Positions 7,353 to 26,366 of a stretch of DNA of 35,940 bases are shown one piece after another (the first letter of the stretch is position 1; each line of letters opens with the position of its first letter). Both the position numbers and the translations under genes were made by a program. The notes below the pieces were generated by a model. The model did no database searches, was not told where the DNA came from, and was given only the letters and a program-made list of their open reading frames with translations. The DNA is from Candidatus Berkelbacteria bacterium (GTDB lineage: Bacteria > Patescibacteriota > UBA1384 > JACPKC01): assembly GCA_016198415.1 (NCBI GenBank), contig JACQIO010000001.1, positions 1 through 35,940 on the forward strand, read 5' to 3'.

Positions 7353-7416
7353 GCCGGTTGCATCCAGACCGAACACCCGCGAGTCCCAGAAGAACGTGAT
7401 AGAATGGAGCAACACT

Positions 7417-10239
7417 ATGGCACGACGCCTCAGGGACCTCATCCCGTTCCATAATCCACTTCACGTCCGCACCACCACCAGGGTGGGGCGATCGAGGAAG
7501 CGGCGGATCCAGTGGCCACTCGTGTGGCGCTGGGTCCGACTCCTCATGGTGCTCGGCATCTTCCTGACGGCCGGTCTATTTGCTTGGTACGCCAAAGATC
7601 TCCCCACGCCGGGCAAGATTCGAGACCGACAAGCCGCCGAGTCAACCAAGATTGTCGCCAGTCGCGGCGAGCTCCTCTACGAGGTCCACGGTGAGGAAAA
7701 TCGGACCAATCTGGCCTTCAATCAAATCCCCGAGACCGTCAAGCATGCCACCCTAGTGGCCGAGGATCGAACCTTCTACACGCACTTTGGCCTTGACTTC
7801 AAGGGACTGGCGCGGGCCGTCTTTCTGGATGTCTTCACCGGAGCCCGAGTGGGCGGCTCAACGATCACGCAACAGTTCGTGAAGAATGCCCTCCTCACCA
7901 ACCAAAAAACGTTTGACCGAAAGATCAAGGAGCTGATCCTTGCCCTGGAACTTGAGGCGATGTTCACCAAAGACGAGATCTTCACCTTCTACCTGAACGA
8001 GATCCCCTACGGATCAAACAACTACGGCATCCAGGCCGCTGCTCAAGCCTACTACGGCAAGCACGCCAACGAGCTGGCGCTCCATGAAGCCGCGACGCTG
8101 GCCGCCCTCCCTCAAGCGCCCACCTACTACTCTCCCTACGGAACCCACACCGATGTCCTCTTGGGCCGCCGCGACTGGATTCTGACCTCGATGGCCGAGC
8201 TCGGCTACATCTCCGAGGAAGAGGCGGCGGAGGCCAAGCAACAACCACTTGGTGTCCAGCCAAGGCGAGACTCAATCAAGGCGCCTCACTTCGTCTTCTA
8301 CGTGCGCGAGCAGCTCGTCGAGCTGTTCGGAGAGCAACTCGTGGAAGAGGGCGGGCTTCGGGTCACGACCAGCCTTGACCTGCCCCTCCAAGCCGAGGCT
8401 GAGCAAGCCATTCAGGCCGGGATGGCCCGGGTGCGGCAGCGCGGTGGGAGCAATGCCGCCCTCGTCTCCGTCAGCCCCAAGTCCGGTCACGTCCTGACGA
8501 TGGTTGGCTCACAGGACTACTTTGATACCGAGCATGACGGCAACGTCAACGTGACACTCGCCGAACGACAGCCAGGTTCGAGCTTCAAGCCAATCGTCTA
8601 CGCCACCGGCTTCAAGCGCGAGTTCAGTCCGACCACCACGCTCTGGGATGTCCCAACCGACTTTGGCAACTACGCGCCCAACAACTACGACGGCAACTTC
8701 CGCGGACCGATCTCGGCCAGACAGGCGCTCGCCGGCTCCCTGAACATTCCAGCGGTCAAGATGCTCGGCCTGGTGGGTTTGAACGAGGCTTTGAAGACGG
8801 CCCATGACATTGGGATCACGACCCTCAACCAGCCCGAGCGGTACGGCCTCTCGCTGGTCCTGGGCGGGGGCGAGGTTCGTCCGCTCGATATGGCAACCGC
8901 CTTCTCCACCTTTGCCAACGGGGGGACGTATCGTCCACCAGTCAGCATCCTCAAGGTGGAGGATCCAAACGGCAAAGTCCTCTTTGAACACCAGGAACGG
9001 AAGGGTGAGAAGGAGGTCCTCGATCCCTCCGTGGCCTACCTGGTCACCGATGTCCTCAAAGACAATGAGGCGCGCGCCCACATCTTTGGTTCGCGCTCGG
9101 CTCTCTACTTTGCCGATCGGCCGGTGGCAGCCAAGACCGGCACCACGCAGGAGTATCGGGATGGCTGGACCGTTGGCTACACCCCTAGCATCGCCACTGC
9201 GGTTTGGGTGGGCAACAACGACAACACCCCTATGCACAAGGGCGCGGATGGCTCGGTGGTGGCCGCCCCAATCTTCAATAAGTTCATGACGGCTTCCTTC
9301 GGGAGCAACGAGATTGAGTCCTTCACCAAGCCCAACGTGATCCGCGAGTACGCTGTCGATCGCCTCTCGGGCAAGCTCCCGTCCCAGGACTCGCCAGAGA
9401 TTGTCTATGATCTCTTTGCCCCCTGGCACGCGCCGAAGGAGAAGGACACCATTCACGTTCGTGCTACTGTGAACCGCCTGAATGGAAAACTGGCCACTGA
9501 GTACACGCCCGTTGACCTTCGGGAAGAGCGAACCTACACCGTCATCCACTCTGAGCGACCCGCTGATCCACGCTGGGAGGAGCCCGTCCTCGCCTGGGCC
9601 AAGGATCACGGGCTGGCGATTGGCGACCCTCCCACGGAGATTGACGACTACTCAGCCGTCACCGTGCCCGAGGTTCACATTACCTCACCAAGCGATGGGG
9701 CCACGGTCGTAGGGACCGTTGCCGTCACCACCAGGGCGAGCGCCCACTTTGGGCTCAGCTCCGTTTCCCTGGCCATCGATGGGACCATGCTCGCCACTCG
9801 GACTGAGGCACCGTACGACTTCACCATCGACACGAGCACCCTGGTGGCGGGCAGCCATACGCTGACGGCGAGTGCCTCAGACGTGCATGGCGCCAGTGCC
9901 ACCACCACAATCACGATTGGCGTGCAGGGTGACGTCACACCCCCTGGGCCAGTCACGGCCGTGACCGCGGTGCCCAAGAATCAGTCGGCCAAGCTCCAGT
10001 GGCTCAACCCGGCCGATGCAGATTTGGAACGGATTCGAATCTATGTGAGTCAGTCGCCCACCATCCTGGGGACCCTCTATTCAACCGAGGTCCTGGTGAC
10101 GCCGTCGAGCATCAGCTCGTACACCGTCACCGGCCTTGTCAACGGCATACCCTACTACTTCACGATTCGACCACTCGATCGGCTCGGCAATGAGCGCGCC
10201 ACACCGCCCTACAACGCCACGGCCACTCCCGGCCTGTAG
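7417..10239 (+). CDS. Class A penicillin-binding protein (PBP1A type) with Ig-like and FN3 C-terminal domains
   Basis: This bifunctional peptidoglycan synthase has 940 residues. The ATG at 7417 is preferred over the GTG at 7396 because GGAG lies 8 bases upstream. A basic cytoplasmic tail is followed by one membrane helix (about 42-58). The GT51 glycosyltransferase domain has the catalytic Glu in AEDRTFYTHFG (about 116) and GGSTITQQ (146-153). The transpeptidase domain has SSFK (388-391, catalytic Ser), SLN (441-443) and KTG (573-575). All active-site motifs are present. A linker leads to a bacterial Ig-like domain (about 751-845) and a fibronectin type III domain (about 848-935), which probably bind wall polymers or space the enzyme from the membrane. 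It stands alone, divergent from tyrS and convergent with radA, with only 15 bases between the stop codons and no terminator visible. Confidence 0.95.
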   Translation: MARRLRDLIPFHNPLHVRTTTRVGRSRKRRIQWPLVWRWVRLLMVLGIFLTAGLFAWYAKDLPTPGKIRDRQAAESTKIVASRGELLYEVHGEENRTNLAFNQIPETVKHATLVAEDRTFYTHFGLDFKGLARAVFLDVFTGARVGGSTITQQFVKNALLTNQKTFDRKIKELILALELEAMFTKDEIFTFYLNEIPYGSNNYGIQAAAQAYYGKHANELALHEAATLAALPQAPTYYSPYGTHTDVLLGRRDWILTSMAELGYISEEEAAEAKQQPLGVQPRRDSIKAPHFVFYVREQLVELFGEQLVEEGGLRVTTSLDLPLQAEAEQAIQAGMARVRQRGGSNAALVSVSPKSGHVLTMVGSQDYFDTEHDGNVNVTLAERQPGSSFKPIVYATGFKREFSPTTTLWDVPTDFGNYAPNNYDGNFRGPISARQALAGSLNIPAVKMLGLVGLNEALKTAHDIGITTLNQPERYGLSLVLGGGEVRPLDMATAFSTFANGGTYRPPVSILKVEDPNGKVLFEHQERKGEKEVLDPSVAYLVTDVLKDNEARAHIFGSRSALYFADRPVAAKTGTTQEYRDGWTVGYTPSIATAVWVGNNDNTPMHKGADGSVVAAPIFNKFMTASFGSNEIESFTKPNVIREYAVDRLSGKLPSQDSPEIVYDLFAPWHAPKEKDTIHVRATVNRLNGKLATEYTPVDLREERTYTVIHSERPADPRWEEPVLAWAKDHGLAIGDPPTEIDDYSAVTVPEVHITSPSDGATVVGTVAVTTRASAHFGLSSVSLAIDGTMLATRTEAPYDFTIDTSTLVAGSHTLTASASDVHGASATTTITIGVQGDVTPPGPVTAVTAVPKNQSAKLQWLNPADADLERIRIYVSQSPTILGTLYSTEVLVTPSSISSYTVTGLVNGIPYYFTIRPLDRLGNERATPPYNATATPGL

Positions 10240-23127: not shown

Positions 23128-24105
23128 TCAGTAGAGCAAACCCACCTGTTCGTCGTCGCGGTAGAGAGCGGGACGGTGCTCCGGGGCCGTCTCCTTCCAG
23201 ACCCGGGTGACGTGCCCGACCATCCTGCGAACATCGGGCAGCGTTGCATCGACGCTCTGCCAGCCGATGTTCCCCGCGAGGTTGTGTTCCTCGCCGATCA
23301 CCGAGAAATCGTCATCGCCTTCCCGGAAAGTTAGCACGACACGGCCACACATGACCCAGCTCATCAGCGTGACCGGGCCGAACTGGCCGGACATCCCCCT
23401 CTTAGTAGAGGTGTCGATGATCACCTCGAGGCCTTTCGCGAGGACCTCGCGAGCGAACGCAGCGGTGATCTCGGCGAGGACTGCGTTGGCAGCCCGGTAG
23501 TCCATGCAGGTCGGTGAATCGGTCTCGAGCACCGACTCCAGGAGGAACTTGGAGTGGAGCCGAGCGTGGTCCATGAAGTTCGCCCTCGCGAAGAGTGTCT
23601 CCCAGCCCACCTCGGGCCGCAGGTAGAGCGTGATCCGCAGCTCGCGCTCGATGAACTTACCGAACTCGCTACCACTCTCCCGGATCTCGGGCGGGTTGCG
23701 GTGGTGCCAGTCGTACTGGTCCACCCAGGCCACCATGGAGAAGTCCCGGCCAGGATACTTCCGGAAGAGGTCGCGCACGAAGTAGGGCTCGGTCTCATAC
23801 CACCAAAGACCCTCGAGCATATCCGGCTCCCGAGGCGAGTCACTGGGCTGGTTGAACAGATAGGCGAACTCTCTGTTCTGAGCTACCTGATCTGGGCGGT
23901 CGCTGGACATGATCCAGCCATTGGGACCGGTCCCCCTCCCGCGCCGGAAGAGCAGCTCGGCATCAGCTCGTTCGACGGCGATGTACGTGATCTTGGGCTG
24001 CACCTCCTGCCCCCTGTCCCGAACTGAGTGTATGAAGACGATCGGATCGACGTGGGGGTACTGTTTGCGAAGCCGCTCGATCTTTCGGTTCAACTTCTTT
24101 GCCAT
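23128..24105 (-). CDS. Protein of unknown family, inserted in the dcw cluster
   Basis: This encodes 325 residues from the ATG at 24105, 9 bases after GAGGAGG; an ATG at 24114 lies too close to that site. There is no signal peptide or membrane helix, so it is probably cytoplasmic. The N-terminus is strongly basic (MAKKLNRKIERLRKQYPHVDP). The middle is rich in aromatic and acidic residues (WWYETEPYFVRDLFRKYPGRDFSMVAWVDQYDWHHR, then ELRITLYLRPEVGWETLFARANF). The C-terminal half alternates helices and strands (LEVIIDTSTKRGMSGQFGPVTLMSWVMCGRVVLTF). I recognise no family or catalytic signature. The gene has its own terminator and is divergent from the ABC exporter, and the two make up the insertion between mraY and murD. 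Any link to the exporter is unproven. Confidence 0.8.
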   Translation of the reverse strand: MAKKLNRKIERLRKQYPHVDPIVFIHSVRDRGQEVQPKITYIAVERADAELLFRRGRGTGPNGWIMSSDRPDQVAQNREFAYLFNQPSDSPREPDMLEGLWWYETEPYFVRDLFRKYPGRDFSMVAWVDQYDWHHRNPPEIRESGSEFGKFIERELRITLYLRPEVGWETLFARANFMDHARLHSKFLLESVLETDSPTCMDYRAANAVLAEITAAFAREVLAKGLEVIIDTSTKRGMSGQFGPVTLMSWVMCGRVVLTFREGDDDFSVIGEEHNLAGNIGWQSVDATLPDVRRMVGHVTRVWKETAPEHRPALYRDDEQVGLLY

Positions 24106-24258
24106 TGTTTCCATCCTCCTCTGGCATCGCCAGGATTTTTCAGCACACTTTCCGCGTGCCGTGAGAGATGCCACGTTCACCCTGTGGCAAGGGTCATTTC
24201 TGTGAAGATGCGTCTGACCTGGATCAGAACCGGTGCAATGTACGCTCATCCTCCAACC
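24106..24258. other. Divergent spacer upstream of the gene at 23128
   Basis: No gene is seen. It must hold the minus-strand promoter of the gene at 24105, but I find no convincing -35/-10 pair. TTGCCA (minus strand, near 24190) is the best -35 candidate, without a matching -10. Confidence 0.4.
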
Positions 24259-24287
24259 TTGACAAGGGTCGGCTCATCTGGCATGGT
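24259..24287 (+). promoter_or_regulatory. Promoter of the ABC exporter leader
   Basis: A perfect -35 TTGACA (24259-24264), a 17-base spacer and CATGGT (24282-24287), with TGG just upstream as an extended -10. The expected transcript start is near 24294, about 265 bases before the exporter start codon. Confidence 0.6.
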
Positions 24288-24322
24288 GGGTCAACCCATT
24301 TGGGTACAGAAAGTAGGCAGAC

Positions 24323-24460
24323 ATGATTCTGGACCGACGCCAACTCGGATCTTGGATGCTCACTCCCGTTGCTCGGGCGCGTTTTGGTGTGCTCCAGGAT
24401 GTGACCGGCACACCGCGCCACGCCGTCTGTACCCAAGAGGACTCGGTTCCGATCCCATAA
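24323..24460 (+). CDS. Possible leader peptide in the attenuator
   Basis: An ATG-started frame of 45 codons (MILDRRQLGSWMLTPVARAR and onward) ends with TAA 20 bases before the terminator. The upstream AGG is a weak ribosome site. If it is translated, a ribosome on it would open the 10-bp closing helix and the inner hairpin, as in translation-controlled attenuators. It may also be a chance frame. Confidence 0.25.
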   Translation: MILDRRQLGSWMLTPVARARFGVLQDVTGTPRHAVCTQEDSVPIP

Positions 24461-24480
24461 CCGACCTGCCTTGAGACCAG

Positions 24481-24510
24481 ACGCTGTGGCGCACCCGCCA
24501 CAGCGTTTTT
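24481..24510 (+). terminator. Intrinsic terminator in the exporter leader
   Basis: A perfect 11-bp stem ACGCTGTGGCG/CGCCACAGCGT with a CACC loop runs straight into TTTTT. It lies upstream of the exporter start with no called gene before it, which is the reason for proposing attenuation. Confidence 0.9.
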
Positions 24511-24560
24511 GATTGCCGACGAGAGGGCAACCGTAACCTAACAACTGGAGGTGTACATCG

Positions 24561-26366
24561 GTGAAACAGTCAACAACTGACGCGCTGGCGCATGTCTGGA
24601 AGGTTCTCAGGATCCTCTGGGGACTCCTGCTCGATGGCGAGCTGCGAGGGCGCTACGTCCTCCTGGTCAAGCAACTCTTCGTCTCAGAATGGCTGAAGAT
24701 TGGGCTCACATATGCCGTGAGCGCGATCGTGCTCCTCGCCCCAATCGACCCCGCCTGGCAGGTCTGGACCGCCCTGATCGTCTGTTACCTTCTCCTCGAC
24801 GAACTCTACCTTCGGCTCGACTGCCGGCTCATGGAGCTCATCGCGATCGAGATCGATGAGGAAAGCTACCGGATGCTCAAGGAGAAAGCACTCCGCCAGC
24901 TCTTCCGGCTCGACCTGGCATGGTTTCAACGTTCAGGCTCGCGCGGCTTTGTGGCCAAGGTCAACAAAGGCGTCGAGAAGGTGAGTGACCTGGTGAGTTT
25001 GATCGCGTGGGAGTTCATTCCCAACGCCATCCAACTTGCCCTGACCTTAGTGCCCATCCTCGCCCTCTCTCCGGCCTCGGCGGGAATCGCGCTCGTCGCA
25101 TTCCTCGCCTTTGGCTGGCAGACCGTCCTCTCCTACCTGGACCGATACCCGCTCCGCGAGGCGCGACATGACGTCTGGGAGGAGGATACACAACGCTTCG
25201 ACGAGCTCGCGGAAACCCACCGAACGGTCGTGCTGATGGGCCAGGACGAACGGGCCGTTGATGACTATCGGGGCATCCTCGACCGAGGGTTCGCGCTCGG
25301 GCAAACGGATACCCAACAGAACCTGAGAAAGCACCATCGGCCGCGAGCCCGGGTTCTCTCTTGGACGAAGGCAGGGGTCTACGGGGTCTGGATCGTTCAA
25401 CTCCGTTCCGGTCTCCTGACGCTCCCGTCGTTGGTCTTTGTGAGTACGCTCTTTGAGAAGCTACTCGCGACCTGCTGGCGATTCTCCAAGAACTTCGAGC
25501 GACTCATGGAAGCCAGCGAGTCGGTCCGCCGCCTCGGTGACTTGATGGCTGAGGAGCCGACCATGCAGAGCGGGAGTTGGACGCAGTTACCCACGGGCTC
25601 GGTTGGCTTTGGCTTCCAGGCCGTCCAGTTCGACTACTCCGGGACGGACCAGAACGGCCAGAGTACGCTCCAGAGCGTCTCGTTCACGGCTGAACCGGGA
25701 CAGGTGGTGGCGATCGTGGGCAAGTCGGGTGCCGGCAAGTCAACGATCAGCCAGCTCCTGCAGCGGCTCTACGATCCGCAGGTGGGCCAGGTGATCGCAG
25801 CCGGCCGACCGGCTCCCGAGTGGGACCTACGCACCTACCGGAGCCTCTTCGCCGAGGTCCCGCAAGGCAACAAGGTCCACATCTTCGAGAGCACGATCGG
25901 CGCCAACATCGCCTTCGGGCGGCCCGACGCCACGCACAAGGACATCGAGCGGGCGGCCCGGCAGGCAGGGCTCCACGAATTCATCGTGGGCCTCGAGCAG
26001 GGGTACCGGACGCTCGTCGGCGAACGCGGACACCGGCTCTCGGGTGGGCAGATGCAACGGCTCGCCCTGGCCCGGGCCTTTCTGGCCAACGCGCCGATCC
26101 TCATCCTCGATGAGGCGACGAGCTCGCTGGACGGGCCAACCGAACAGGTCATTCTGGATGGCATCCGCGAGGCGTCACACCAGAAGACCGTGCTGGTCAT
26201 CGCCCACCGCCTGTCCACGATCAAGGACGCGGATCTGATCCTCGTCCTGTCCGAGGGACAGATCGTGGAGCGTGGCACGCACACCGAGCTCCTGGCGCTC
26301 AGCGGTCACTATGCCGCTCAGTACGCCAAGGATGCTGAGACCGAGCTCGCCAGCCAGGTGAGCTAA
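24561..26366 (+). CDS. ABC exporter, fused membrane and ATPase domains
   Basis: This encodes 601 residues from the GTG at 24561, 9 bases after GGAGG. The N-terminal half (about 40-320) is a type IV exporter membrane domain with five or six hydrophobic segments and long charged helices. The C-terminal ATPase (about 350-590) has every motif: Walker A GKSGAGKST, a Q-loop region FAEVPQGNKVHIFESTIGANIAFG, signature LSGGQMQRLALARA, Walker B ILILDEATSSLD and the switch His in IAHRLST. It should act as a dimer, exporting a lipid, peptide or drug. The substrate is unknown. As a half-transporter with no partner gene next to it, it is probably a homodimer. It has its own promoter, a structured leader and a strong terminator. 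It lies on the strand opposite to the dcw genes it separates. Confidence 0.93.
   Translation: MKQSTTDALAHVWKVLRILWGLLLDGELRGRYVLLVKQLFVSEWLKIGLTYAVSAIVLLAPIDPAWQVWTALIVCYLLLDELYLRLDCRLMELIAIEIDEESYRMLKEKALRQLFRLDLAWFQRSGSRGFVAKVNKGVEKVSDLVSLIAWEFIPNAIQLALTLVPILALSPASAGIALVAFLAFGWQTVLSYLDRYPLREARHDVWEEDTQRFDELAETHRTVVLMGQDERAVDDYRGILDRGFALGQTDTQQNLRKHHRPRARVLSWTKAGVYGVWIVQLRSGLLTLPSLVFVSTLFEKLLATCWRFSKNFERLMEASESVRRLGDLMAEEPTMQSGSWTQLPTGSVGFGFQAVQFDYSGTDQNGQSTLQSVSFTAEPGQVVAIVGKSGAGKSTISQLLQRLYDPQVGQVIAAGRPAPEWDLRTYRSLFAEVPQGNKVHIFESTIGANIAFGRPDATHKDIERAARQAGLHEFIVGLEQGYRTLVGERGHRLSGGQMQRLALARAFLANAPILILDEATSSLDGPTEQVILDGIREASHQKTVLVIAHRLSTIKDADLILVLSEGQIVERGTHTELLALSGHYAAQYAKDAETELASQVS

Follow-up and report, generated by a model that had tools for sequence, protein, structure and literature searches.

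A probable leader-peptide transcription attenuator in front of an ABC exporter from Candidatus Berkelbacteria

What controls the expression of an ABC exporter that is encoded as a single gene in a bacterium with a small genome? Hardly any bacteria of this kind have, to our knowledge, been cultured, and very little is known of how they regulate their genes. We analyzed a stretch of 35,940 nucleotides from a Candidatus Berkelbacteria bacterium (hereafter the window), which is part of a genome of 738,346 bases in 37 contigs that is 83% complete. Genomes are small throughout its phylum, as would fit the candidate phyla radiation. An ABC exporter gene is located on the plus strand (24561-26366), and a divergent, uncharacterized ORF lies upstream of it on the minus strand. 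Together, these two genes break up a minus-strand cluster for division and cell wall synthesis, with ftsI, murF and mraY on one side and murD, ftsW, murG and murC on the other (cluster genes without a Pfam call were named from a reading of their translations). The gene that follows the exporter is mraY-like and lies on the opposite strand. The leader region that we address here lies in the roughly 450 nt that separate the divergent ORF from the exporter.

The exporter has a Pfam ABC_tran domain and a sub-threshold match to ABC_membrane. Comparison with PDB and NCBIfam showed a resemblance to transporters of the MsbA, P-glycoprotein and Atm1 type, with scores under every NCBIfam cut-off shown. 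Its family and the kind of control described below suggest that it might serve in drug efflux or in the removal of toxic compounds. The combined evidence makes it quite probable that the leader region is a transcription attenuator, in which a leader peptide ORF (uORF) ties the exporter to the translation state of the cell. This reading builds on the following features:

24259-24287, plus strand: promoter candidate, read from the sequence as TTGACA, a 17-nt spacer and CATGGT.
24300-24310, plus strand: strand 1 of the closing helix (TTGGGTACAGA), the predicted 5' strand of an anti-antiterminator, just 5' of the leader ORF.
24323-24460, plus strand: leader ORF (uORF) of 45 amino acids (MILDRRQLGSWMLTPVARARFGVLQDVTGTPRHAVCTQEDSVPIP); its ATG is the first one downstream of the predicted start, its frame crosses the antiterminator, and its stop lies before the terminator.
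24415-24429, plus strand: antiterminator segment A (GCGCCACGCCGTCTG), with 14 pairs to the left arm of the terminator.
24426-24436, plus strand: strand 2 of the closing helix (TCTGTACCCAA), which overlaps segment A by 4 nt.
24478-24492, plus strand: left arm of the terminator, T1 (CAGACGCTGTGGCGC), which can pair with A or with T2.
24481-24510, plus strand: predicted intrinsic terminator with an 11-bp stem, a 4-nt loop and TTTTT (from sequence and fold, -22.7 kcal/mol).
24561-26366, plus strand: ABC exporter gene, a half-transporter of 601 amino acids with a GTG start and the Shine-Dalgarno sequence GGAGG; sole gene of the unit.

The original prediction had described a promoter with a perfect TTGACA, and this -35 box was indeed found at 24259-24264 by direct reading and by script. 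The -10 element CATGGT matches 3/6 consensus positions, at a spacing of 17 nt and with an extended-10-like TG just upstream. Because of this weak -10 and since a consensus promoter scan did not list the window's promoter, we regard it as plausible, not strong. Transcription is predicted to start at about 24294. All other structural elements that had been proposed were likewise present on direct reading or by script, with corrections to the helix, the antiterminator and the -10. The closing helix, reported as a perfect helix of 10 bp, is a perfect inverted repeat of 11 bp (24300-24310 x 24426-24436). The perfect 11-bp terminator about 50 bases before the exporter was recovered at 24481-24491 x 24496-24506, with 13 pairs if an A-U extension is counted; TTTTT follows at 24506-24510 and leaves 50 nt to the GTG at 24561. 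Also the 45-codon frame at 24323-24460, ending 20 nt before the terminator, was found as described. An antiterminator that excludes the terminator was correctly proposed, and only its geometry had to be revised from 11 pairs with a 2x2 loop to 14 pairs with one 1x1 mismatch, formed by GCGCCACG-C-CGTCTG (24415-24429) and CAGACG-C-TGTGGCGC (24478-24492). The energy of this A:T1 duplex is -25.0 kcal/mol versus -15.3 +/- 2.1 kcal/mol in shuffled sequences, and 0/1000 dinucleotide shuffles reached the observed value (p 0.001). The region as a whole folds better than 200/200 shuffles (z -3.3).

We then asked how these elements would behave in a growing transcript, using stepwise folding that yields minimum-energy structures, not kinetics. 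The closing helix was the first to form, and in RNA extending up to 24483 strand 1 was paired with strand 2 over 11 pairs. When T1 was completed, the best fold was A:T1 with 14 pairs, and when T2 was made, helix 1:2 together with the terminator won. Blocking of 24308-24338, as by a ribosome at the start codon, let A:T1 persist even with T2 complete, which in terms of folding is antitermination. With a ribosome placed over A, or at the stop codon, the terminator was part of the resulting fold.

We propose the following scheme, in which transcription would start near 24294. Without a ribosome, strand 1 (24300-24310) would pair with strand 2 (24426-24436), segment A would be occupied and the terminator would form, leaving the exporter OFF. 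During normal translation of the uORF, ribosomes would cover A or the stop codon while the terminator emerges, and the exporter would again be OFF. A ribosome that stalls at or near the uORF start, due to a ribosome-targeting drug or another translation stress, would break helix 1:2 and leave A free. Free A would then pair with T1, the terminator would be blocked, and RNA polymerase would continue into the exporter gene (ON). We favor the ribosome as sensor because the short ORF through the antiterminator is what is conserved. The attenuator parts, their exclusive pairings, the recurrence and co-change in the clade and the folding outcome for each ribosome position were computed, and we infer that promoter, uORF and terminator are functional in the cell and which sign the response would have.

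Relatives were sought via the exporter, in the class, then in the phylum, and then in the order or class of the matches. Full-length relatives are 34-40% identical to the exporter of the window where compared, and they are thinly scattered across many families, a distribution that suggests transfer or loss. When named genomes were scanned for the exporter, two distant transporters were all that was returned; the order of G332 contained no additional clade member, and the distant exporters of the class were without comparable leaders. In a tree of 43 exporters (including L064 and excluding L065, a partial gene) the 14 with the leader plan formed a single clade with a support of 100/100, in which the window is a deep branch. 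The next branch, L040, had no terminator-like site within 160 nt, and among 28 other exporters outside the clade such a site was found within this distance in a single case (L005). Since the 14 fall into one clade and the exporters outside it are nearly all without a terminator-like site, the leader plan looks ancestral to the exporter clade.

All 13 other exporters of this clade are preceded by a promoter-like sequence, a short ORF and a hairpin. In most of them, TTGACA and, 17-18 nt further on, a TATA-like -10 occupy the position that the promoter candidate has in the window; L036 is without a perfect TTGACA, and the -10 of L070 is weak like that of the window. Their short ORF starts near the predicted transcription start and is followed by the hairpin, in many cases a canonical terminator, roughly 35-85 nt 5' of the exporter start with its Shine-Dalgarno sequence. 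No clear T run is seen in roughly half of these hairpins (L037, L038, L039, L068, L069, L071). The terminators of L070 and the window have ACGCTGTGG...CCACAGCGTTTTT in common. In 14/14 leaders tested, translation from the first ATG downstream of the predicted start would proceed across A and end between A and T1. This ORF arrangement arises by chance in 4-13% of shuffles per leader, and the 14 events are not all independent, because five leaders are close relatives. The close relatives have retained the frame (34 or 30 codons) under weak purifying selection (pN/pS 0.5-0.9).

In RNAduplex, we paired the left arm of each hairpin with its upstream leader, using 1000 dinucleotide shuffles per leader for comparison; L064 is partly masked and was excluded from the leader tests. 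The A:T1 pairing stood out in the window, L070 and L039 (p 0.001 each), in L068 (p 0.007), in L037 (p 0.020) and in L065 (p 0.021). It was not individually significant against shuffles in the other leaders, among them L035, L003, L063, L069 and L071, and in L062 the best duplex site was elsewhere. Fisher combination over 11 diverged leaders gave p 6e-8, a result that may be favored by the arms of L037, L038, L039 and L069, since these were picked by eye and their hairpins are non-canonical. Restricted to the five diverged leaders that are clearly canonical (L035, L003, L070, L036 and the window), the test gave a combined p of ~6e-5 by hand arithmetic from the same values. As a control, 55 unrelated terminators were run through the same pipeline; four had p <= 0.1 and one p <= 0.025, which is the chance expectation. 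When arms were swapped among the leaders, cognate pairs beat permuted pairs (p 1e-4, row and column effects removed). Hence, the leader sequences change and the A:T1 complementarity stays. The original prediction had named a lack of compensatory changes in relatives as evidence against it, and this comparison of cognate with swapped arms leaves the attenuator unrefuted.

The distance between A and the terminator arm is confined as well, with A located 29-52 nt upstream across the leaders (for L062 and L071, A was placed by homology or by trimming the best duplex). In nascent RNA ending at T1, most leaders form the A:T1 duplex; L068 and L039 do so only with the 5' part blocked, and L071 does not. 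Local pairing upstream of A, as expected for a conserved anti-antiterminator, was not significant across the clade. We therefore argue for helix 1:2 from the fold of the window only.

The leader peptides share little among the wider clade. Those of the close-group leaders have the C-terminus CASVFAYI in common, with CATAFAYI in L065. The degenerate codon pattern of CASVFAYI was searched in 380 genomes and occurred only in two already-known exporter leaders. The peptide of the window ends without this motif, and in L003 it is preceded by Gly-Gly. Six leader peptides were scanned against Pfam and none gave a match above the cut-off. It seems unlikely to us that these peptides form a new class of regulated arrest peptides, in which the C-terminal motif (CASVFAYI with the variants CATAFAYI and CSAAFAS) would stall the ribosome upon a specific compound, perhaps the substrate of the exporter, rather than upon general translation stress.

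Somewhat less likely still is a role of the short ORF as the product itself, that is a small exported peptide such as a pheromone, a bacteriocin or a modified peptide made together with its dedicated exporter, with the terminator between them setting the product ratio. The ORF adjoins the ABC exporter in every clade member, there are peptide exporters among the NCBIfam relatives, and both the CASVFAYI terminus conserved in some peptides and the Gly-Gly before it in L003 would fit. However, the complementarity of the ORF RNA to the terminator arm, which changes with the arm, and the narrow distance from A to the terminator would be unexplained. Moreover, peptides across the wider clade are dissimilar, selection on them is weak, and the six that were scanned lack a Pfam match above the cut-off.

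Control by a leader-peptide attenuator was also weighed against known classes of RNA. No Rfam family matched the window or its relatives; the original prediction had likewise not recognized a known riboswitch class. With E up to 10 the region gave chance matches only, and a T-box was absent from the Rfam scans both at this setting and at the gathering threshold. A single-sequence covariance model of the structure was searched against 14 sources, fellow-exporter leaders among them, and detected no relative. The covariance search that had been suggested, with Rfam and a custom model, thus detected no relative, and therefore a conserved aptamer is not supported. The leaders, when compared, have neither a conserved sequence nor a closing domain in common. 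In riboswitches, conservation is usually highest in the aptamer. We consider it very unlikely that the 11-bp helix closes an aptamer domain which binds the exporter substrate and controls the terminator directly and without translation. The domain is compact and closed, the fold is strong (z -3.3), and segment A shares nucleotides with strand 2, which would fit a metabolite riboswitch, but such a switch would leave the uORF arrangement unexplained, in addition to the negative searches and the divergent leaders. Of the initial designation as attenuator or riboswitch, we keep the attenuator, given the terminator, the exclusive antiterminator and the recurrence before 13 other exporters, and find no support for the riboswitch, as Rfam and the model were negative and the closing domain is not conserved.

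6S RNA (RF00013) had no match in the genome of the window, and in 55 genomes of the class none scored over the Rfam cut-off, with one sub-threshold match (L034); it is either absent from the class or too diverged for the model. For this reason the strongly folded RNA of ~215 nt, which has promoter-like and terminator sequences of its own, could be a diverged housekeeping RNA. However, a stable small RNA that ends at the terminator, while the exporter depends on a different promoter or on leaky read-through, is hardly credible, given that the leader plan is always directly before this exporter clade, that Rfam is negative and that the antiterminator would be without a role.

Our best reading is that the leader of the window would act like the bmrB-bmrCD or vmlR attenuators of Bacillus. 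In bmrB-bmrCD of Bacillus subtilis, ribosome-targeting antibiotics lead to antitermination, and removal of the bmrB start codon lowers expression and abolishes the induction by lincomycin (Reilman et al., 2014; PMC4191407). Similar to the window, a small leader ORF, alternative stem-loops and an intrinsic terminator precede a multidrug ABC exporter, and the effect of the start codon agrees with our folding prediction of an OFF state without translation. In contrast to the window, where the ORF stops before the terminator and a single half-transporter gene follows, the bmrB terminator is inside the coding region and bmrCD is a two-gene exporter that is also under AbrB (PMC4191407). The vmlR leader of B. 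subtilis likewise combines a uORF, an anti-antiterminator, an antiterminator and a terminator, and a stalled ribosome prevents the anti-antiterminator; it also uses NusG pausing and translation attenuation, and it controls an ABC-F ribosome-protection protein, whereas the window encodes an exporter (Takada et al., 2022; PMC9226507). In the patAB leader of Streptococcus pneumoniae an intrinsic terminator limits an ABC multidrug exporter, as it may do in the window; the abstract describes control via terminator stability and names no leader peptide, whereas the window has a leader ORF (Baylay and Piddock; PMC4319486). The toiL uORF of Escherichia coli, which resembles the window in being a uORF, senses several antibiotic classes by stalling at different codons, but unlike the window it acts on translation and Rho-dependent termination in a toxin-antitoxin transcript (Baniulyte and Wade, 2025; PMC12121999).

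Among the open-access journal papers retrieved on leader peptides, attenuators or antiterminators together with Patescibacteria or the candidate phyla radiation, no title or abstract describes such control. As far as we have seen, the mechanism is known, and its occurrence in this family and lineage and its clade-wide upkeep without sequence conservation are new. If our reading is true, RNA and the ribosome alone would suffice to control an efflux pump, and no dedicated protein would be needed, the parts of the regulator all being encoded in cis. A regulator would have been kept before one exporter clade despite complete sequence turnover, and bacteria with small genomes would meet translation stress that is worth sensing. 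Attenuators that are unseen by covariance libraries may then be found through the gene that they control.

Several further observations were made at this locus and in its relatives. A second frame of 63 codons (24284-24474, plus strand) overlaps the leader ORF and also stops before the terminator; since its ATG falls within the -10 candidate, it would not be part of the predicted transcript. In addition to the -35 and -10 boxes, the promoter spacers of L035, L062, L063, L064, L065, L069 and L071 share a CCTATA-like stretch (TTGACAnnCCTATAG...TGATAT), which may belong to the promoter or be a site for a protein. In L035, L062, L063, L065 and L069 a short 5'-end hairpin (GCCAATTTTGGC, with variants such as GCCCGAAATTTTGGGC) is found just after the predicted start and before the leader ORF; it is not seen as such in the window. 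The 11-bp inverted repeat made us consider a mobile element with 11-bp ends, and this was rejected, as blastn found no second copy in the genome and no target duplication was visible by eye. A blastn search with the region in 60 relatives returned the self-match only. The divergent ORF (23128-24114, minus strand) encodes ~325-328 amino acids with a likely start at 24105 or 24114, and had no Pfam or NCBIfam match. Farther upstream, a class A penicillin-binding protein is encoded at 7396-10239 (plus strand), with a Big_7 domain at its C-terminus, where fn3 also matches weakly.
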